The notes beneath the pieces were generated by a model, which saw only the letters and a list, made by a program, of their open reading frames with translations, was not told where the DNA came from and did not search any database. From an uncultured Bacteroidota bacterium (GTDB lineage Bacteria; Bacteroidota; Bacteroidia; Chitinophagales; Chitinophagaceae), in contig CAIVKC010000024.1 of the NCBI GenBank assembly GCA_903906365.1, positions 1 to 64,000 on the forward strand: a stretch of DNA of 64,000 nucleotides. The letters run 5' to 3'. Numbering within the stretch: the first letter of the stretch is position 1; each line of letters begins with the position of its first letter. Position numbers and translations under genes: made by a program. Positions 18,851 to 27,827 of the stretch are shown piece by piece.

Positions 18851-18891
18851 CGCCGGCAGAAGACTATTGTTTCAAAATCTGGAAATTGCTT

Positions 18892-19857
18892 ATGGCACTG
18901 CACAAAAGGGTGAATCCATTTTTAAAGATCAACAACGATACTGGATTTGGTACCAATGCCAACAGTTATGGAGGCCGGTTTATCAACCGGGATGGTACTT
19001 TCAACATACGCAAGGAAGGGGTTCCCTTTATGACCCGTTTCAGTATCTATCACAGTATGCTGAACCTGCCCCGGTGGAAATTCATCGGAGTAATTGTAGT
19101 ATTCTATTTTTCCATCAACCTGTTTTATACCCTGCTTTACCTGCTGGCCGGTACCGACCAGCTGCAGGGGCTCATTGCGGAGAGCCCCTGGAGGACTTTC
19201 AAGGAAGTCTATTTCTTTTCCACCGAAACCTTTACCACGGTAGGGTATGGTAGGGTAAACCCCGTCGGGGACTGGGCCAACCTGATTGCAGCCATTGAAG
19301 CGATGAGCGGTTTTTTGTCCTTTGCCATCGCCACAGGTCTTATATATGGACGTTTTGCCAAGCCCCGGGCTTACCTGGTTTTCTCTGACTTTGCCCTGGT
19401 ATCCCCCTATCAGGACAAAACCGCCCTGATGTTCCGGTTTGCTTCCTACAAAGAAAACCACATGCTGACCAATGTGGAGGTCATAGTCACCATTGGCCTG
19501 CAGGCCATTGAAAATGACAAGCCGGTTTTTAAGTTTTATTCCCTTAACCTGGAACGCAGCCGGGTGGACAGCCTGCCCATGAACTTTACGGTGGTTCATC
19601 CCATTGACGAAAACAGTCCCTTGAACGGTTTTGGGTTTGAGGACATGAAAACGGCCGATGTGGAGCTGTATGTCCTGATCCGGGGATTTGACGATGTCTA
19701 TTCCAATGTGGTGATTCAGCGTACCTCCTATATCTATGACGAGATCCTGTTCAACCGGAAATTCATGCCGATGTACCGGGAAAGCGATGACGGCAAAACC
19801 ACCATCCTGGAACTGAGCAAACTCAATGAAACCATGGAAACGGACCCGCCAGCCTGA
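18892..19857 (+). CDS. Inward-rectifier potassium channel (KirBac-type)
   Basis: The first ATG of the frame is at 18892 (321 residues; a TTG lies two codons earlier). Layout: cytoplasmic N-terminus with a slide-helix region, TM1 about 62-84, pore helix and selectivity filter TTVGYGR (115-121), TM2 about 128-152, then an immunoglobulin-like cytoplasmic Kir domain to the end (ALMFRFASYKENHMLTNVEV). The filter TVGYG is K+-selective. KirBac channels are tetramers in the inner membrane and respond to lipids. It precedes a TetR regulator and the inositol-lipid genes on the same strand, separated by about 80-760 bp. Confidence 0.93.
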   Translation: MALHKRVNPFLKINNDTGFGTNANSYGGRFINRDGTFNIRKEGVPFMTRFSIYHSMLNLPRWKFIGVIVVFYFSINLFYTLLYLLAGTDQLQGLIAESPWRTFKEVYFFSTETFTTVGYGRVNPVGDWANLIAAIEAMSGFLSFAIATGLIYGRFAKPRAYLVFSDFALVSPYQDKTALMFRFASYKENHMLTNVEVIVTIGLQAIENDKPVFKFYSLNLERSRVDSLPMNFTVVHPIDENSPLNGFGFEDMKTADVELYVLIRGFDDVYSNVVIQRTSYIYDEILFNRKFMPMYRESDDGKTTILELSKLNETMETDPPA

Positions 19858-20616: not shown

Positions 20617-21942
20617 ATGCAAGAGAAAATTCAACAAGCAGATGGGAAATTGGGTATCCTTATTCCCGGTCTGGGCGCCGTCGCTACCACACTCATTGCC
20701 GGGGTTGAGGCAATCAGGCAGGGTTTATCCCAGCCCATCGGATCCCTTACCCAGATGGGAAATATCCGATTGGGAAAGCGGACCGAAAACAGGTACCCGC
20801 TGATCCGGGAATTTGTCCCGCTGGCCGATCTGAAAGATATTGTATTTGGGGGATGGGATGTATATGCAGACAATGTGTTTGAGGCAGCCTCCAAGGCCAA
20901 GGTGCTGGAACCTTCCCTGCTGGCAGCCATCAAACCGAATTTGCAGGCCCTTGTGCCGATGAAAGCGGTCTTTGATAAGTCCTATGTCAGGAACCTGGAC
21001 GGCTCCAATGTGAAACAGGCAGCTACCAAATATGACCTCGCCAAAGCGGTGATGGATGATATAGAGAACTTCCGGGAAGCCAACGACTGCAGCCGGGTCG
21101 TGGTGGTCTGGTGCGGCTCCACCGAACGTTATATTGAAACCGGCAGGGTTCATGAAACGATTGAACAGTTTGAAGAGGGGCTTCGCGAAAATGACCCCAT
21201 GATCTCTCCCAGCATGATTTATGCCTATGCGGCCATCCGGTTGGGTGTGCCCTTTGCCAACGGGGCCCCCAACCTGACCTGTGATATCCCCGCCCTGATG
21301 GAACTGGCCAGAAGGACCGAGACCCCCATTGCCGGAAAAGACTTTAAAACGGGACAGACCCTGATGAAGACCATACTGGCCCCCGGTCTGCATGCCCGCG
21401 CCCTTGGTATCCGGGGCTGGTTTTCCACCAATATCCTGGGCAACCGGGACGGACTGGTACTGGATGATCCCGATAATTTTAAGACCAAGGAGGTCTCCAA
21501 ACTCAGTGTACTCGATGATATTCTGCGGCCGGAACTCAACCCGGAATTATATGGCGAGCTCTATCATAAGGTAAGGATCAATTATTATCCCCCTCATGGT
21601 GACAATAAGGAAAGCTGGGATAATATCGACATTTTCGGCTGGCTGGGATATCCCATGCAGATCAAAATCAATTTCCTGTGCCGAGATTCCATACTGGCCG
21701 CACCCATTGTACTGGACCTGGCCCTGTTTATGGACCTGTCCAAACGGGCAGGTATGTCCGGCATACAGGAATGGCTCTCGTTTTATTTTAAATCTCCCCA
21801 GACTGCTCCCGGCCTGAGACCGGAGCATGACATATTCAAGCAGCTGATCAAACTGCAAAATACCCTGCGCCATATGATGGGAGAGGACCTGATCACCCAC
21901 CTGGGCCTGGATTATTACCAGGACCTGGTTGAAGCCCTATGA
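20617..21942 (+). CDS. ino1: Myo-inositol-1(3)-phosphate synthase
   Basis: The protein has 441 residues. The N-terminal Rossmann segment is LGILIPGLGAVATT (residues about 12-25). Family blocks follow: VVVVWCGSTER, SMIYAYAAIRLGVPFANG, GKDFKTGQTLMKT, GWFSTNILGNRDG, and NYYPPHGDNKESWDN. It isomerises glucose-6-phosphate to inositol-3-phosphate using NAD as a recycled cofactor, the committed step to inositol lipids. Its stop overlaps the start of the next gene (ATGATGA at 21939), so translation is coupled to the PgpA-like gene. Confidence 0.95.
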   Translation: MQEKIQQADGKLGILIPGLGAVATTLIAGVEAIRQGLSQPIGSLTQMGNIRLGKRTENRYPLIREFVPLADLKDIVFGGWDVYADNVFEAASKAKVLEPSLLAAIKPNLQALVPMKAVFDKSYVRNLDGSNVKQAATKYDLAKAVMDDIENFREANDCSRVVVVWCGSTERYIETGRVHETIEQFEEGLRENDPMISPSMIYAYAAIRLGVPFANGAPNLTCDIPALMELARRTETPIAGKDFKTGQTLMKTILAPGLHARALGIRGWFSTNILGNRDGLVLDDPDNFKTKEVSKLSVLDDILRPELNPELYGELYHKVRINYYPPHGDNKESWDNIDIFGWLGYPMQIKINFLCRDSILAAPIVLDLALFMDLSKRAGMSGIQEWLSFYFKSPQTAPGLRPEHDIFKQLIKLQNTLRHMMGEDLITHLGLDYYQDLVEAL

Positions 21943-22394
21943 TGACCTTTCACCGGGTGGTTTGTACCTGCTTTGGCATCGGCTACGCCGGGCGGGGCGG
22001 CGGCACCCTGGCCGCCCTGGCGGCCCTGGTGGGCTGGTTCCTGCTTTTCAGGGCAGGGGACGGTCTGACCCAGCAGGTCCTGTTGACGATGGGAATCACC
22101 CTGCTGGGCATCTTGTCAGCCAGCCAGGTGGAAAGGGATTGGGGCAAGGACAGCAACCGGGTGGTTATTGATGAGGTGGCGGGTATGTGCCTCAGCCTGT
22201 GGCTGGTTCCCGTGGAAGGCAGGTATCTGATTTGCGCCTTCGTTCTGTTTCGTTTTTTTGATATATATAAGCCATTTTTCATCCGGCGTTTGGAAAAATT
22301 GCCCGGAGGTTGGGGCGTCATGGCCGATGATTTGCTGGCAGGTATTTATGCCAACCTCGTGGTCCAGGGCGTCCTTATATTAAAATTGTTTTAA
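21939..22394 (+). CDS. pgpA: PgpA-family phosphatidylglycerophosphatase-like lipid phosphatase
   Basis: The protein has 151 residues. PgpA motifs are present: GIGYAGRGGGTLAAL (residues about 14-28), DSNRVVIDEVAGM (catalytic acidic cluster), LFRFFDIYKPF, and the late WGVMADDLLAGIYAN. The family dephosphorylates phosphatidylglycerophosphate. In this operon, directly overlapping inositol-phosphate synthase, a phosphatidylinositol-phosphate phosphatase role is more likely (inference from context). There are three to four membrane segments. It is 4 bp before gtrA. Confidence 0.93.
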   Translation: MMTFHRVVCTCFGIGYAGRGGGTLAALAALVGWFLLFRAGDGLTQQVLLTMGITLLGILSASQVERDWGKDSNRVVIDEVAGMCLSLWLVPVEGRYLICAFVLFRFFDIYKPFFIRRLEKLPGGWGVMADDLLAGIYANLVVQGVLILKLF

Positions 22395-22398
22395 GTCC

Positions 22399-22770
22399 AT
22401 GCGAGTATTTTTCAAAGCGCAGCTGGCCTCCCTGACGGCTACGGCCATTGATTTTTTGGTAACGATCCTGCTGGTAAACCTCTTTGGATTTTACCCCGTG
22501 CCCGCCAGCGCCATCGGCACCATTACCGGCGGGGCCGTCTACTTCCGGATGGGCAGGAACTGGGTTTTTGAAGCAGCGCAGGGACCAGGCAGCGAGCAGG
22601 CTGTAAAATATATTGCCGTCTGGATCGTCTATCTCTTACTGAATACCGGGTTTCTCTACCTGATCACCCGGTACACGGGGGTCAATTACATCCTGGCAAA
22701 GGTGGGGGTGGCCATAACCATGAGCGTTAGTTATAATTTTGTGCTGCACAAGAAATTTGTTTTTAAATAA
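22399..22770 (+). CDS. GtrA-family membrane protein
   Basis: The protein has 123 residues with four predicted membrane helices and the GtrA shape: short, with a basic loop after helix 2 (YFRMGRNWVFE) and a C-terminal SYNFVLHKKFVFK. GtrA-like proteins are associated with moving polyprenyl-linked sugars across the inner membrane or with glycosyltransferases. It starts 4 bp after the PgpA-like gene, so it belongs to the same operon. It might translocate or support decoration of inositol lipids, but nothing in its sequence shows this. Confidence 0.9.
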   Translation: MRVFFKAQLASLTATAIDFLVTILLVNLFGFYPVPASAIGTITGGAVYFRMGRNWVFEAAQGPGSEQAVKYIAVWIVYLLLNTGFLYLITRYTGVNYILAKVGVAITMSVSYNFVLHKKFVFK

Positions 22771-22783
22771 TATAAGGGAAATT

Positions 22784-25489
22784 ATGTTTATATCGGATAG
22801 GAAGGGCATCAAATGGATGGTTTTGTTGGGTATGCTGATCTCCCTGCACGGATTTGCCCAGACCACTACGGTAAACGGTGTGGTCAGGGATGCTGTCACC
22901 CGGTTGCCGCTTTCATCGGTTACTGTGAGCATCCGCAATGTAAAAGGAGGGGTTATGACCGATTCGCTGGGACAGTTCTCCATCCGTTATTTCAAACCGT
23001 TTTCCCAGCTGGTTTTTACCAGTGTCGGCTATAAAAACCAAACCCTGACCCTGCGAAAGGATCAGTTTGCCCGGGCATCCCAGGATGATTCCCTGCAGCG
23101 GACCACTTCCCCTGTGGGCGCCCTTTCAAATACCCCGGCAGATTCCCTGTCCCGCCCCACTGCCGCAGCCCCCGGGTCATCGGCCGATTCCGGCCGGAGC
23201 CGTGCGGACGGGTCCTCCCCGGACCTGCGGCTGATCGAAGTCTACCTGCAACCCAACAGCAGCCTGCTGGGGACCGTTACGGTCAGGAACAAAAAGCAGA
23301 AATACCGCAATAAGGATAACCCCGCCGTGGAACTGATCAGGCACGTTATAGAGAATAAGGCGAAAAACCGGATGGAAGCCTATGAATTTGCCGAATACGA
23401 GAAGTATGAAAAAATGCAGCTGTCCCTCAACAACGTCTCTGAAAAGGTGAGGAACTCCAAACTGACCCGCAAATACCATTTTTTGTTCGACAATGCCGAT
23501 ACCACCATCATTGAGGGGAAGTCCCTGTTGCCCGTATACCTGGAGGAAAAATTATCCCATAATTATTACCGCAGCAACCCCCAGAAAAACAAGACCGTGA
23601 TACTGGCGCAGAAGAAAGTGGATTTCGGTGAATTCGTGGATATGCGCGGGGTCAGTTCCTATCTCAACCGGCTCTATGAGGAGGTCAATATCTACGACAA
23701 CAATATCTCCCTGTTTACCAATCTTTTTTTGAGTCCCATTGCAGATATGGCGCCCACTTTTTATATGTTTTTTATTGCTGACACGGTGGTGGTCAATAAC
23801 CAGCCGCTGGTCAGATTGACTTTTCGCCCACGCAACCCCAATGATTTTCTGTTCCGGGGCACCATGTATATTACGTTGGATGGCAACTATGCTGTGCAGA
23901 AACTGAACATCATCACCAGTAAGAACATCAATTTGAACTTTGTCCGCGAATTGAAAATAAACCAGGATTTTGAAAGACGCGAAGACGGCAGGTACCTGCT
24001 GACCAAAAGCGACGTGATCGGGGATTTCGGGATTCTCAAAAAAGGCAGCGGCATATTTGGGGAAAGGGTTATTTCTTTCAAGAATTTTGTAACCAACCGG
24101 CCCATCGCCGACAGTATTTTCAAAGGCCCGGTCCTGGTCACCCTGCAACAGGCCGGCACCGAACAGGACAGCTTCTGGCTTTCCCACCGGCATGATTCCC
24201 TTTCCACGGCTGAATCCAAAGTATATGCCAATATCGACAGCCTCAAGAACATGCCCTCCTTTCGCCGGGTGATGGATTATGCCACCCTGCTGCTGGCAGG
24301 CTACAAACAGGCAGGCATCTTTGAAATCGGTCCCGCCAGCACCTTTTACAGTTTCAATCCCGTGGAGGGGTTCCGCCTCCGCTTCGGCGGCAGGACCACC
24401 CCTAAGTTTTCCAACCGGTATTATTTTGAAACCTATGGCGCCTACGGATTCAAGGACCAGAAATGGAAATATTTTTTCTCATCGACCTATTCGCTCAACA
24501 ATAAATCCGTTTATGGATTTCCACTAAACTATATACGGGCCAGCTACCAGCGGGAAACAAAAATACCAGGCCAGGAATTGCAGTTTGTCCAGGAGGACAA
24601 TTTCCTGCTTTCCTTCAAAAGGGGTAATAACGATAAATGGTTATACAATAACTATTTCAAGCTGAACTACGTCTATGAATTCGGTAACCATTTTTCCTAT
24701 GATTTTGGCCTCAAATACTGGAAGCAGCAGCCGGCCGGAACCATATACTACGTCCAGCCCTCCCAGACCGGCCTTGATACCTTGCGCGACCTGACCACCG
24801 GCGAACTGTCCGTCCAGTTCCGTTGGGCCCCCAACGAACAGTTCTACCAGGGCAAACTATACCGGATTCCCATTGTGAACAAATACCCCATTTTTACCCT
24901 GCGGTATATTGCGGGGATCAAGGGGCTCCTGGGAGGACAGTACAATTATCAGAATCTAACGCTCAATATCTTCAAAAGGGTATACCTTTCCCAGCTGGGA
25001 TATTCCGATATCACCCTGGAGGGCGGTGCTCTTTTTGGAAATGTCCCCTTCCCCTTAATGGAGATCCATCACGCCAACCAGACCTATGCCTATCAGCTCA
25101 ATTCCTATAATCTGATGAACTTCCTGGAATTCGTGAGTGATCATTACGTCAGCGTGGATGTGGACCACTACTTCAACGGGTTCTTCTTTAATAAAATCCC
25201 CCTGTTCAAGAAGCTCAAATGGAGGGAGGTGGTGGAAGGCAAACTCCTGTATGGGGGCGTTCGCAGTGAAAATGATCCCGATGTCAATACCGGGCAAATC
25301 AAGTACCCGCTGACCGACGGGGTGAAGACTACCTTTGGCCTGAAAAACCAGCCTTATATAGAGGCCGGTTTCGGGATAGCCAATATTTTCAAGCTGGTGA
25401 GGGTGGATTTTATCAAGCGGTTCACCTACCTGGACCACCCCGGACTATCGACCTTCGGGATCCGGGCCAGATTAAAATTTGATTTTTAA
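22784..25489 (+). CDS. DUF5686 outer-membrane protein with carboxypeptidase-regulatory-like domain
   Basis: The ATG at 22784 is chosen (901 residues); the frame is open upstream only through a TTG inside gtrA. A signal peptide ends near HGFAQ. A regulatory-like Ig domain follows (about 27-95, VNGVVRDAVTRLPLSSVTV). Next comes a Ser/Ala/Pro-rich low-complexity stretch (about 98-146), then a long DUF5686 body with aromatic-rich strands ending in LKFDF, typical of an outer-membrane barrel. The start is 13 bp after gtrA. Its function is unknown; its presence in a lipid operon is notable. Confidence 0.88.
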   Translation: MFISDRKGIKWMVLLGMLISLHGFAQTTTVNGVVRDAVTRLPLSSVTVSIRNVKGGVMTDSLGQFSIRYFKPFSQLVFTSVGYKNQTLTLRKDQFARASQDDSLQRTTSPVGALSNTPADSLSRPTAAAPGSSADSGRSRADGSSPDLRLIEVYLQPNSSLLGTVTVRNKKQKYRNKDNPAVELIRHVIENKAKNRMEAYEFAEYEKYEKMQLSLNNVSEKVRNSKLTRKYHFLFDNADTTIIEGKSLLPVYLEEKLSHNYYRSNPQKNKTVILAQKKVDFGEFVDMRGVSSYLNRLYEEVNIYDNNISLFTNLFLSPIADMAPTFYMFFIADTVVVNNQPLVRLTFRPRNPNDFLFRGTMYITLDGNYAVQKLNIITSKNINLNFVRELKINQDFERREDGRYLLTKSDVIGDFGILKKGSGIFGERVISFKNFVTNRPIADSIFKGPVLVTLQQAGTEQDSFWLSHRHDSLSTAESKVYANIDSLKNMPSFRRVMDYATLLLAGYKQAGIFEIGPASTFYSFNPVEGFRLRFGGRTTPKFSNRYYFETYGAYGFKDQKWKYFFSSTYSLNNKSVYGFPLNYIRASYQRETKIPGQELQFVQEDNFLLSFKRGNNDKWLYNNYFKLNYVYEFGNHFSYDFGLKYWKQQPAGTIYYVQPSQTGLDTLRDLTTGELSVQFRWAPNEQFYQGKLYRIPIVNKYPIFTLRYIAGIKGLLGGQYNYQNLTLNIFKRVYLSQLGYSDITLEGGALFGNVPFPLMEIHHANQTYAYQLNSYNLMNFLEFVSDHYVSVDVDHYFNGFFFNKIPLFKKLKWREVVEGKLLYGGVRSENDPDVNTGQIKYPLTDGVKTTFGLKNQPYIEAGFGIANIFKLVRVDFIKRFTYLDHPGLSTFGIRARLKFDF

Positions 25490-25528
25490 CAGCATTACAT
25501 TGAAATTGCAAAAGATATAATTTCCGTG

Positions 25529-26863
25529 ATGAAACAGAACGATCTCAGGGTGAGCATTCAGCGGGGTATTTATACCTTGATCAACCCCTTTGTCAGGTTG
25601 CTCATCCGCGCAGGCCTGACCCCCAATGCGGTGACCACCATCGGGCTGATACTAAATATGGGGGTGGCTGTCATTTTTATTTCCGGTGCGGAGGAAGGCA
25701 ACCGGGGAGACTTCCGCTATGTGGGTTGGGCCGGGGTCCTTGTGTTGCTGGCGGGACTCTTCGATATGCTGGACGGGCAGGTTGCCAGGTTGGGTAACAT
25801 GAGTTCCCGGTTCGGGGCCCTGTATGATTCGGTACTTGACCGATATAGCGAACTCATCCTGTTCCTGGGTATCTGCTATTACCTGGTGGCACATCATTAT
25901 TTTTTGGGATCCCTCATCGCTTTTATAGGCATGATCGGCTCCATGATGGTTTCCTATACGCGGGCGCGTGCAGAAAGCCTGGGTATAGAATGCCGCGGAG
26001 GCCTGATGCAGCGCCCTGAAAGGATCATCCTCATTGGACTGGCCGCGCTGGCCAGCGGTATTACCGCCCATTACCTGGGCGGGGATTATAAACTCTTTAT
26101 CCCCGGGATTCCTTTTCATGTTTTTGAAACCATGTCCGTTTTCATTTTTCCGCTGACTGTCCTGGCCCTGCTGACCAATATCACGGCCCTGGGCAGGCTG
26201 AGGGATGCCAAAAAAGCGCTGGACCGCCAGGACAAAGAAAAGCAGCAGGTACTTTCCATGAGCGCCAAACCCGAATCCAAGATACGGGTACTTCCCCTGC
26301 TGCTGCTGGCCACCTTCGCACTCAGTGCCTACCATCTTCCCCGGCAAAGTCTCTCGGACCGTCAGATGATCCACCGGATGATTGATCCGCAGGATACTTT
26401 TCCCGTGCCCCAGGGCATCAAAAACCAGTTGTTCTACCTGCAGCGTACCCCCAATGTAAATACCATCATCTGTGAACTGAATTACCTCACCGATGGAAAG
26501 CTCGATGAACAAAATCCAGTGCATGTATTTTGGATCCGCTACCAGGATGCCGGTAAGAAAGTGGAATTGTCCTTTATCCAGCGGACCTTTGCCTATGGTA
26601 TCAAAACAAGACAGATCGGTCAGGACAAATATGAACTGCGTTTTGTCTCCTATAAGAAATTTCCTTTTTACCTCTACCGTTCGGCGGCCGACAAAAAGTT
26701 TCATGTATATGCCTCCATCGGGCAAAAGGAAGCCATCCTCAACCGCATCTTCATCAAAATCAACAGCGGCGGCACTTTCTGGTCACCCAATGTAGAATAC
26801 ATTGAATACAAAGGCGTTGATCCGGCCACCGGCAAGGAAGTGATGGAACGCAGGAAAGTCTGA
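25529..26863 (+). CDS. CDP-alcohol phosphatidyltransferase fused to a DUF4833 domain (predicted phosphatidylinositol-phosphate synthase)
   Basis: The ATG at 25529 (a GTG lies just before) gives 444 residues. Residues about 1-225 are a multi-helix CDP-alcohol transferase with the complete catalytic motif D79-x2-D82-G83-x2-A86-R87-x8-G96-x3-D100-x3-D104. After a charged linker (DAKKALDRQDKEKQQ) a second hydrophobic segment (about 254-270) leads to a C-terminal soluble domain resembling DUF4833 (NPVHVFWIRYQDAGKK, KFHVYASIGQ). Family enzymes attach an alcohol to CDP-diacylglycerol. Next to inositol-phosphate synthase, the acceptor is probably inositol phosphate. An internal ATG (26258) precedes the second half, so a separate product is possible. 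Confidence 0.9.
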   Translation: MKQNDLRVSIQRGIYTLINPFVRLLIRAGLTPNAVTTIGLILNMGVAVIFISGAEEGNRGDFRYVGWAGVLVLLAGLFDMLDGQVARLGNMSSRFGALYDSVLDRYSELILFLGICYYLVAHHYFLGSLIAFIGMIGSMMVSYTRARAESLGIECRGGLMQRPERIILIGLAALASGITAHYLGGDYKLFIPGIPFHVFETMSVFIFPLTVLALLTNITALGRLRDAKKALDRQDKEKQQVLSMSAKPESKIRVLPLLLLATFALSAYHLPRQSLSDRQMIHRMIDPQDTFPVPQGIKNQLFYLQRTPNVNTIICELNYLTDGKLDEQNPVHVFWIRYQDAGKKVELSFIQRTFAYGIKTRQIGQDKYELRFVSYKKFPFYLYRSAADKKFHVYASIGQKEAILNRIFIKINSGGTFWSPNVEYIEYKGVDPATGKEVMERRKV

Positions 26864-26882
26864 TCTTTTCAAATCATTGGCC

Positions 26883-27827
26883 ATGGAAATTAACCCCCAG
26901 ATACGTCGAATGGAAGTTTACAGTGGCAGAAACGTGCTGCTGATTGCCTCCCTGGGAGCGGTCTATCTGGCACTTTCCTACTTCCTGATCGGCTTTAAGC
27001 CCGAACAGGTATTTCTGGTGGGCCTTTTTTTCCTGCTTTATTTTTTGTCCGCGCCCACCCGCAGGTTTATTCTCGGGTTTTCGATATTTATCGTGTACTG
27101 GATTGTATTTGATTACATGAAGGCCTTTCCCAACTACCATTACAACCCGGTGCATATTGAAAGCATGTACCAGGCTGAAAAAAATATATTCGGTATTTTT
27201 TACCAGGGCAGCCATATGACCCTCAATGAGTTTTTCCTGCGTAAGGGCAATACCCCACTGGACATTACCGCCGGATTGTTTTATCTGACCTGGATCCCGG
27301 TACCCCTGCTCTTCGGGGCCTTCCTGTTCTACCGGGACCGGCAGCGCTTTTTTCATTTTTCACTGACTTTTTTCCTGGTCAATATCCTGGGTTTTGTCAT
27401 CTATTACCTCTATCCGGCTGCCCCTCCCTGGTATGTACAGCAGCACGGTTTTACCTTCCTGGAAGGTACGGGGGGCAATACGGCCGGCCTCTCCAAATTT
27501 GACCAGTTCTTTCATACCGGTATCTTCCGGTCCATATACGCCAAAAGCTCCAACGTCTTTGCGGCCCTGCCTTCCCTGCATTCAGCCTATCCGGCCATTG
27601 TATTGTATTTTGGGATCAAAAGCAGGGTGGGGCTGATTAACCTGCCATTGGCCATTATAATGGCAGGCGTTTGGTTTTCAGCAGTTTATACCAGCCATCA
27701 TTATGTCATCGACGTGCTCTGTGGCATCGGCTGTGGCATAGCGGGCATGGCCCTTTTCGAATGGCTCCTTGTTAAAAGCAGTCGGCTGAACAGTTTTGTC
27801 GATCATATGGTCCGGCTGACCACCTGA
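26883..27827 (+). CDS. Aur1-like PAP2 membrane protein (predicted inositol phosphoceramide synthase)
   Basis: The ATG at 26883 (314 residues) is preferred to an upstream TTG. There are about six to eight membrane helices. PAP2-superfamily motifs of the Aur1/Ipt1 type are present: YLYPAAPPWY (175-184), LPSLHSAYP (229-237, His233) and SHHYVIDVLCG (271-281, His273 and Asp277). Fungal Aur1 moves phosphoinositol from phosphatidylinositol to ceramide using the same His/His/Asp triad. Bacteroidota make ceramide-type lipids. The position 19 bp after the phosphatidyltransferase supports inositol phosphoceramide synthesis. A simple lipid phosphatase remains the alternative. Confidence 0.9.
   Translation: MEINPQIRRMEVYSGRNVLLIASLGAVYLALSYFLIGFKPEQVFLVGLFFLLYFLSAPTRRFILGFSIFIVYWIVFDYMKAFPNYHYNPVHIESMYQAEKNIFGIFYQGSHMTLNEFFLRKGNTPLDITAGLFYLTWIPVPLLFGAFLFYRDRQRFFHFSLTFFLVNILGFVIYYLYPAAPPWYVQQHGFTFLEGTGGNTAGLSKFDQFFHTGIFRSIYAKSSNVFAALPSLHSAYPAIVLYFGIKSRVGLINLPLAIIMAGVWFSAVYTSHHYVIDVLCGIGCGIAGMALFEWLLVKSSRLNSFVDHMVRLTT

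Follow-up and report, generated by a model that had tools for sequence, protein, structure and literature searches.

A predicted inositol-lipid operon of variant gene content in an uncultured Bacteroidota bacterium

Introduction

The experimentally backed bacterial inositol-sphingolipid genes that we found are those of Bacteroides thetaiotaomicron, in which BT_1526 to BT_1522 encode myo-inositol-phosphate synthase (MIPS), a PgpA-like phosphatase, a GtrA-family protein, phosphatidylinositol-phosphate (PIP) synthase (PIPS), and an inositol phosphoceramide (IPC) synthase (PMC9246714; PMC8791184). Each of these genes was knocked out in PMC9246714, and PMC8791184 did likewise except for BT1525. Here we describe a locus in an uncultured Chitinophagaceae bacterium (Bacteroidota; assembly GCA_903906365.1) that is very probably an inositol-lipid biosynthesis operon of the B. 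thetaiotaomicron type in variant form. It lies at positions 20617–27827 of the window, by which we mean the whole stretch of DNA analyzed (64,000 nucleotides, bases 1–64000 of the 186-kb contig CAIVKC010000024.1); the genome is 4.66 Mb and 99.94% complete.

In sphingolipid-producing Bacteroidota, the three ceramide genes were observed not to be close together (2024 paper, PMC11334938), and in Caulobacter, according to PMC11087976, no sphingolipid flippase or transporter had been identified. What appears to be new here, judged from sequence, is that the B. thetaiotaomicron inositol-lipid cluster is combined with two uncharacterized envelope proteins (DUF4833 and DUF5686) and that 38 of 60 near relatives, though not the window genome itself, have candidate ceramide genes linked to it.

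Results

Six genes in a conserved order

An earlier note, made from the letters of the window alone, had described six compact genes on one strand with one start-stop overlap, and had assigned them to the MIPS, PgpA-like, GtrA, DUF5686, CDP-alcohol transferase, and PAP2 families. All of the open reading frames (ORFs) are indeed present at 20617–27827 on the plus strand, with gaps of −4 to +39 nt, and every one of the families is matched by Pfam. The features are as follows (pLDDT, predicted local distance difference test).

20617–21942, + strand: MIPS, step 1 of the predicted route; PF07994 (NAD_binding_5) 3.2e-104, PF01658 (Inos-1-P_synth) 2.3e-33
21939–22394, + strand: PgpA-family phosphatase, predicted PIP phosphatase (BT_1525 type); PF04608 1.2e-39
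22399–22770, + strand: GtrA-family small membrane protein (BT_1524 type), candidate flippase; PF04138 8e-18
22784–25489, + strand: CarboxypepD_reg-like domain and DUF5686, predicted Omp85-like outer-membrane beta-barrel; PF18939 1.7e-57, PF13715 (CarbopepD_reg_2) 5.3e-9
25529–26863, + strand: PIPS fused to DUF4833; NF052561 381.7 bits, CDP-OH_P_transf 6.7e-17, DUF4833 3.4e-49
26282–26338, + strand: hydrophobic segment between the transferase and DUF4833 (residues 253–271 counted from a GTG at 25526); Kyte-Doolittle mean 1.65
26432–26851, + strand: DUF4833 domain, the sole match in the genome; 170.4 bits, domain model pLDDT 91.1
26883–27827, + strand: Aur1-like PAP2 protein, predicted IPC synthase (BT_1522-like); PF14378 (PAP2_3) 3e-23, NF052609 318.1 bits
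19936–20535, + strand: TetR-family regulator, possible local regulator; TetR_N 1.5e-15

If the first ATG is taken as the start (22784 for DUF5686, 25529 for PIPS, and 26883 for the Aur1-like gene), MIPS and PgpA overlap by 4 nt, and the spacings that follow are 4 nt (PgpA/GtrA), 13 nt (GtrA/DUF5686), 39 nt (DUF5686/PIPS), and 19 nt (PIPS/Aur1-like). The TetR gene ends 81 nt before MIPS.

We compared the locus with two samples. The first consists of 60 related loci, near kin of the window, which were collected in one scan of genome contigs by similarity to the window PIPS-DUF4833 protein; they include loci of Chitinophaga, Niastella, Segetibacter, Hymenobacter, Pontibacter, Dyadobacter, Mucilaginibacter, and Rufibacter, and some are cut short by contig ends and hold only two to four operon genes. 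Three of the six peptide patterns used in the scan came from the DUF4833 part, which inflates the frequency of DUF4833 among these loci. The second sample, of 295 genomes drawn evenly from the class, gives the fairer frequency (12/16, see below). The window and the 60 loci supplied the sequences for the operon profiles and so score highly by construction; comparisons of scores are confined to rows left out of the building.

None of the 60 related loci (0/60) departs from the order SPT-GNAT-reductase-MIPS-PgpA-GtrA-DUF5686-PIPS-DUF4833-hydroxylase-Aur1-like (SPT, serine palmitoyltransferase): genes are absent or cut off by contig ends, never reordered, and the seven operon genes are all on the same strand. 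The Aur1-like gene is present in 57/60 loci, and all eleven genes from SPT to the Aur1-like gene, the hydroxylase included, are present in 20/60. SPT and GNAT lie just upstream in 38/60, or in 38 of the 52 loci taken to include roughly 9 kb of sequence before PIPS or to extend as far as SPT; 35 of the 38 also have the reductase. In the class sample, the order is kept in 12 of the 15 loci other than the window, and SPT lies upstream in 5 of the 15. The order script also flags L149, solely because PIPS and DUF4833 share one frame there, and this locus was not counted as rearranged; L149 (G290:C1:4893000-4912500) is a fused PIPS-DUF4833 gene string in a genome without a MIPS match. Because the same order recurs in 60/60 loci found by similarity and in 12/15 class-sample loci, we conclude that the predicted six-gene inositol-lipid operon at 20617–27827 is real and beyond chance. 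The resemblance to the B. thetaiotaomicron cluster that the note had proposed is borne out by gene order, since MIPS-PgpA-GtrA-PIPS-IPC synthase corresponds to BT_1526 to BT_1522 (PMC9246714).

The transferase, MIPS, and the PgpA-family phosphatase

The transferase scores 381.7 bits, over the cut-off of 350, in NCBIfam NF052561, which is the equivalog for the B. thetaiotaomicron PIP synthase BT_1523. The next NCBIfam models, for archaetidylinositol-phosphate synthase (134 bits) and PIP synthase (118 bits), are both under their own cut-offs. The CDP-alcohol motif, DX2DGX2AR...GX3DX3D, is complete in the window, as had been stated before, and intact in 75/75 PIPS rows, window included (the tree and counts use 75 of 76 rows, L071 having been dropped by a rule against identical sequences). 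In a quick tree, the window PIPS groups with Bacteroidota, and 16 other CDP-alcohol transferases are split from the PIPS rows by one branch (Shimodaira-Hasegawa-like approximate likelihood ratio test [SH-aLRT] 92, with long-branch warnings). Strong PIPS matches occur in 16/295 class genomes, which carry 8 family codes; all score at least 346 bits (15 are over the cut-off and one is at 346 against 350), and the next match scores 41 bits.

The MIPS gene holds the sole PF01658 match of the genome, and its only MIPS-type match in NCBIfam is the mycothiol INO1 model, far under cut-off (27 against 638). MIPS is present in 15/16 strong-PIPS genomes, compared with 20/295 class genomes overall; loci of Dyadobacter and Segetibacter have no MIPS in the gene string.

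PgpA is over cut-off in 24/295 class genomes, comprising 16/16 strong-PIPS genomes and 8/279 others (Fisher 7e-21, relatedness ignored), and this distribution favors a PIP phosphatase role for the family at these loci. PgpA lies near PIPS, in the fetched neighborhood, in 11 of the 16 genomes and elsewhere in the genome in the other five. Seven of the eight PgpA-positive genomes without PIPS (G043, G082, G116, G177, G233, G258, and G282) share one genus code, and the gene in these seven may represent a second use of the phosphatase family in the class.

The Aur1-like protein and predicted ceramide supply

The Aur1-like protein contains the PSLH and HHYxxD motifs, a pair that is found in 57/58 aligned rows, window included. 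Its sequence suggests that it works like, rather than is, the PI-dihydroceramide synthase (PI, phosphatidylinositol) of equivalog NF052609. Its acceptor is probably ceramide, mainly because relatives tie ceramide synthesis to the same gene string, the protein's own score being below the cut-off. In L057, the SPT upstream scores above the cut-off of the SPT equivalog (750 against 640), and its neighbors are a GNAT and an NAD-epimerase-family protein, which we regard as candidate bCerS and candidate CerR, respectively. In the window genome, SPT is on another contig, C30 (666.4 bits against the cut-off of 640 in NF047600), where it is followed by relatives of the L057 GNAT and epimerase proteins (131 and 224 bits).

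Other genes suggest that the ceramides may be hydroxylated or desaturated. In 35/60 loci, DUF4833 and the Aur1-like gene are separated by a gene for a fatty-acid hydroxylase, a relative of which (143 bits) is present on a different contig of the window genome. Inside the inositol-lipid string of L054 (9911–10885) is a protein with FA_desaturase and Lipid_DES (sphingolipid Delta4-desaturase) domains; its relatives in L036 and L055 are likewise part of the string, and those in L080 and L090 fall outside. The contig of L055 is titled Azovibrio restrictus (Pseudomonadota), and its PIPS is nearly identical to that of L054, which is titled uncultured Bacteroides; the placement in A. restrictus is probably a binning error.

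DUF4833

DUF4833 is present in 27/295 class genomes and is fused to or beside PIPS in 12/16 strong-PIPS genomes. Of the 75 rows, 25 have it fused to PIPS, 40 have it separately, and 10 lack it, and because the fused and separate states change at least seven times on a weakly supported tree, we claim no direction of fusion. A hydrophobic stretch (19-residue Kyte-Doolittle mean >1.5) precedes the domain in 20 of 24 frames filed as fused and in 22 of 30 separate ones, and the remaining frames peak at 1.16–1.49; the fused count contains one misfiled locus, L067, whose stop-to-stop frame extends upstream of the start and which is treated as separate elsewhere. Judged by eye, the separate copies start like secreted proteins. 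CDP-alcohol transferases have both ends in the cytoplasm in known structures, and because one hydrophobic segment follows the transferase, the DUF4833 domain is probably periplasmic.

The structural model of the domain is confident, and a fold search against PDB gave 868 matches at E ≤10, none at ≤0.001, and a best value of 0.039, with TM normalized to the query ≤0.35 among the matches listed (best 50). When PDB sequences were searched with the DUF4833 and DUF5686 profiles, nothing was returned up to E 1, and a literature search on each, which did not span all literature, found no paper.

Among the 30 DUF4833 matches listed, 12 lie at PIPS, one belongs to a gene cluster of genome G242, and three belong to strings of another kind. 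The G242 cluster (L122:9524-18187, G242:C23) encodes DUF5686, an NTP transferase, a CDP-alcohol transferase, an LPG-synthase-like protein, HAD and PfkB-kinase proteins, and DUF4833. Since G242 is not among the 20 MIPS genomes, the PfkB kinase may phosphorylate imported inositol. The three strings (L123:5595-9537, L124:9685-13386, and L132:6302-9972, from three genomes) combine an SDR protein, a PhyH dioxygenase, a CDP-alcohol transferase, a GtrA relative, and DUF4833, and possibly serve another head-group lipid; Pfam was run on L123, and L124 and L132 were grouped with it by similarity. For the other 14 matches no lipid context was seen, within a Pfam scan of neighbors in L126 (two ORFs) and L127 (seven ORFs) and, for the rest, a comparison of neighbors with the operon profiles and each other.

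DUF5686

Because the DUF5686 family is near-universal in the class (288/295 genomes), its presence alone says little. Operon copies kept out of profile building (class sample) score 966–1292 bits against the operon profile, and the G242 copy scores 1249, whereas the two other copies in the window genome score 391 and 93; by this measure, the operon type is distinct from the other copies of the genome. A quick tree joins the G242 copy to the Dyadobacter operon copy (SH-aLRT 100) and places one long-branched paralogue inside the operon set. The structural model is partial (pLDDT 68.8, with residues 1–174 below pLDDT 50). Foldseek matched the barrel best to BamA (3.9e-8) and also to the TamA barrel (TMt 0.68), with 104 matches at ≤0.001; among the matches listed (best 50), TM normalized to the whole query is ≤0.28, and no entry is named as a porin or TonB-dependent receptor. 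DUF5686 is thus predicted from the fold match, in which strands were not counted, to be an Omp85-like barrel.

A DUF5686 gene is at PIPS in 11/16 strong-PIPS genomes. The DUF5686 gene and the DUF4833 fusion, named by the note as extra members, are therefore present as described but are not peculiar to the window genome. Over the 75 rows, 62 have both DUF4833 and DUF5686, 8 have neither, 3 have DUF4833 only, and 2 have DUF5686 only (Fisher 4e-7); with relatedness taken into account, there are three independent pairs on supported branches and the co-loss is not significant (sign test median p 0.5; class sample alone, p 0.063). Three loci (L140–L142) hold biosynthetic genes without DUF4833 and DUF5686. 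In L141 and L142, which have a B. thetaiotaomicron-like set, no match to the DUF5686 profile was found in 19.5 kb, and among five scanned ORFs of the two loci there is a CarbopepD_reg_2 protein, in L141 only. PMC9246714 names a carboxypeptidase-regulatory-like neighbor, BT_1527, which is at most a possible equivalent of DUF5686.

Flanking genes and signals

A TetR relative (at least 60 bits) is found at 24/60 related loci and at 2/16 class-sample loci, the window being one of the two; the TetR gene may be part of the locus. Upstream of it, window positions 18886–19857 encode a protein like inward-rectifier potassium channels. Promoter and terminator scans gave counts near shuffled expectation (14 against a mean of 9.6, sd 3.2, and 10 against a mean of 10.8, sd 3.3, respectively).

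Discussion

We propose that MIPS would convert glucose-6-phosphate to inositol-phosphate, that the PIPS domain would join this to CDP-diacylglycerol to give PIP, that the PgpA-like enzyme would remove the phosphate to give PI, and that the Aur1-like enzyme would move phosphoinositol from PI to ceramide. The ceramide would be supplied, from another contig, by SPT, the GNAT acyltransferase (candidate bCerS), and the epimerase-family reductase (candidate CerR). Family membership, gene order, motifs, and the co-occurrence of PIPS, MIPS, and PgpA are read from the sequences, and the individual reactions are carried over by analogy from the B. thetaiotaomicron experiments. The pathway reading of the earlier note is supported, although its full predicted route needs qualifying: the families for the head-group steps are in place, but the ceramide genes are on contig C30 and not in the operon, and the Aur1-like protein falls short of its equivalog (318 against 480).

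Several observations weigh against this proposal. Three of the 15 class-sample loci are rearranged (L144, where the Aur1-like gene runs on the opposite strand, and L145 and L146, with MIPS after PIPS). Three Rufibacter loci (L072, L079, and L082) have reduced strings with GtrA and PIPS, and MIPS in two of the three, in which no PgpA, DUF5686, DUF4833, or Aur1-like gene was found near PIPS (L072 and L082 being short upstream). One strong-PIPS genome, G290, has no MIPS match anywhere. In the window genome, SPT is outside the operon and the GNAT relative beside it is weak (131 bits). BT1525 could not be deleted in PMC8791184, whereas PMC9246714 deleted it. There is no second PgpA in the window genome, and the enzyme may also serve phosphatidylglycerol synthesis. 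The score of the Aur1-like protein with NF052609 does not reach the cut-off (318.1 against 480 bits).

Alternative readings of individual enzymes have to be set against the same data. The transferase belongs to the same superfamily as PgsA and PssA, and a grouping with phosphatidylglycerophosphate or phosphatidylserine synthases was what the note had regarded as fatal to its reading. The scores of 33.6 bits for the PgsA model and 25.8 bits for the PssA model, compared with 381.7 for the BT_1523-type model, together with the branch that sets the PIPS rows apart, lead us to reject these identities as scarcely credible. A general function of PgpA as the cell's phosphatidylglycerophosphatase, within a cluster for phospholipids in general, would fit both the single PgpA match in a 99.94% complete genome and the deletion that PMC8791184 did not obtain. 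We consider it very improbable, as 271 of the 279 class genomes without PIPS have no PgpA over cut-off, and as BT_1525 was assigned as the PIP phosphatase in PMC9246714 because its deletion accumulates PIP, with other glycerophospholipids unaffected. It is less remote, though still quite unlikely, that PI is made while the Aur1-like PAP2 protein passes phosphoinositol to an acceptor other than ceramide, for instance a surface glycan or a different amino lipid, or acts simply as a lipid phosphatase. The low equivalog score would be explained, and two relatives score alike (313.6 and 329.1 bits), while the L141 copy passes at 543.5; against this stand the SPT within the same gene string, the fatty-acid hydroxylase adjoining the Aur1-like gene, and the FA_desaturase/Lipid_DES protein of the L054 string. 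An inositol-lipid operon whose last enzyme acts on ceramide is thus the reading that we prefer.

The roles of the envelope proteins are less certain. We infer that the finished inositol lipid is handled by GtrA, by DUF4833 in the periplasm, and by DUF5686 in the outer membrane, most likely during its transport to or placement in the outer membrane. The presence of DUF4833 and DUF5686 in the alternative CDP-inositol-type cluster of G242 suggests that the two may serve the finished lipid, perhaps in export. In the most specific form of this idea, GtrA would flip the lipid across the inner membrane; DUF4833, tethered to PIPS or secreted, would take or hold it on the periplasmic side; and DUF5686, whose predicted Omp85-type barrel is joined to a carboxypeptidase-regulatory domain, would place it in the outer membrane or at the surface. 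Such a dedicated export route is doubtful. It would agree with a GtrA (BT1524) mutant in which IPC was reduced and the PI content of total membranes was raised, without a matching increase in vesicles (PMC8791184). Opposed to it are the report in PMC9246714 that deletion of BT_1524 caused no change on thin-layer chromatography, the judgment that the TamA-like TamL of Flavobacterium johnsoniae is most likely not involved in lipid transport (PMC12045153), and the biosynthetic genes of L140–L142, which are present without DUF4833 and DUF5686. The last two observations would equally suit an explanation that we rate as somewhat unlikely, namely that neither protein handles inositol lipid, DUF5686 being an outer-membrane factor of general function that was captured by the operon and DUF4833 a periplasmic domain of general use. 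Also in its favor are the near-universal presence of DUF5686 in the class, the 14 of 30 listed DUF4833 matches outside the three lipid contexts found, and the lack of significant co-occurrence once relatedness is considered. It accounts less well for the distinctness of the operon-type DUF5686, for the position of DUF4833 at PIPS in 12/16 genomes, and for the recurrence of both proteins in the G242 cluster.

If the export route were correct, one operon would both make a bacterial inositol sphingolipid and deliver it, and the cargo of Omp85-type insertion would be a lipid and not a protein. The locus offers three transport candidates (GtrA, DUF4833, and DUF5686) that are open to gene-deletion tests. 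The predicted pathway occurs in one string in other Bacteroidota, including Chitinophaga, Niastella, Pontibacter, Dyadobacter, and Mucilaginibacter, and the predicted lipids would be akin to those of yeast and gut Bacteroides.

Relationship to known systems

The locus shares with BT_1522–BT_1526 its MIPS, PgpA-like, GtrA, PIP synthase, and PI-dihydroceramide/IPC synthase genes in the same order, with an intact PIPS motif (PMC9246714; PMC8791184). It differs in having DUF5686 between GtrA and PIPS, DUF4833 fused to PIPS, a divergent Aur1-like protein, and a TetR gene upstream, and many of its relatives add SPT, GNAT, reductase, and fatty-acid-hydroxylase genes. The putative alternative cluster of B. 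vulgatus and Prevotella (NTP transferase, CDP-alcohol transferase, and HAD; PMC9246714) is matched in content by L122 of G242, which, like the window operon, has relatives of both DUF5686 and DUF4833. Unlike the window operon, L122 has an NTP transferase, its CDP-alcohol transferase is a different one (26 bits with the PIPS profile of the operon), and no match to the operon MIPS, PgpA, or Aur1-like profiles was found within its 19.5 kb. As with spt, bcerS, and cerR of Caulobacter (PMC11087976), SPT in the relatives is accompanied by an acyltransferase and a reductase, here a GNAT and an epimerase-family protein that are candidates only for bCerS and CerR; unlike in Caulobacter, the ceramide genes are joined to inositol head-group genes. 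In contrast to the separation of the three ceramide genes noted in PMC11334938, 38/60 loci join SPT to the candidate acyltransferase, and 35 of them also to the candidate reductase.

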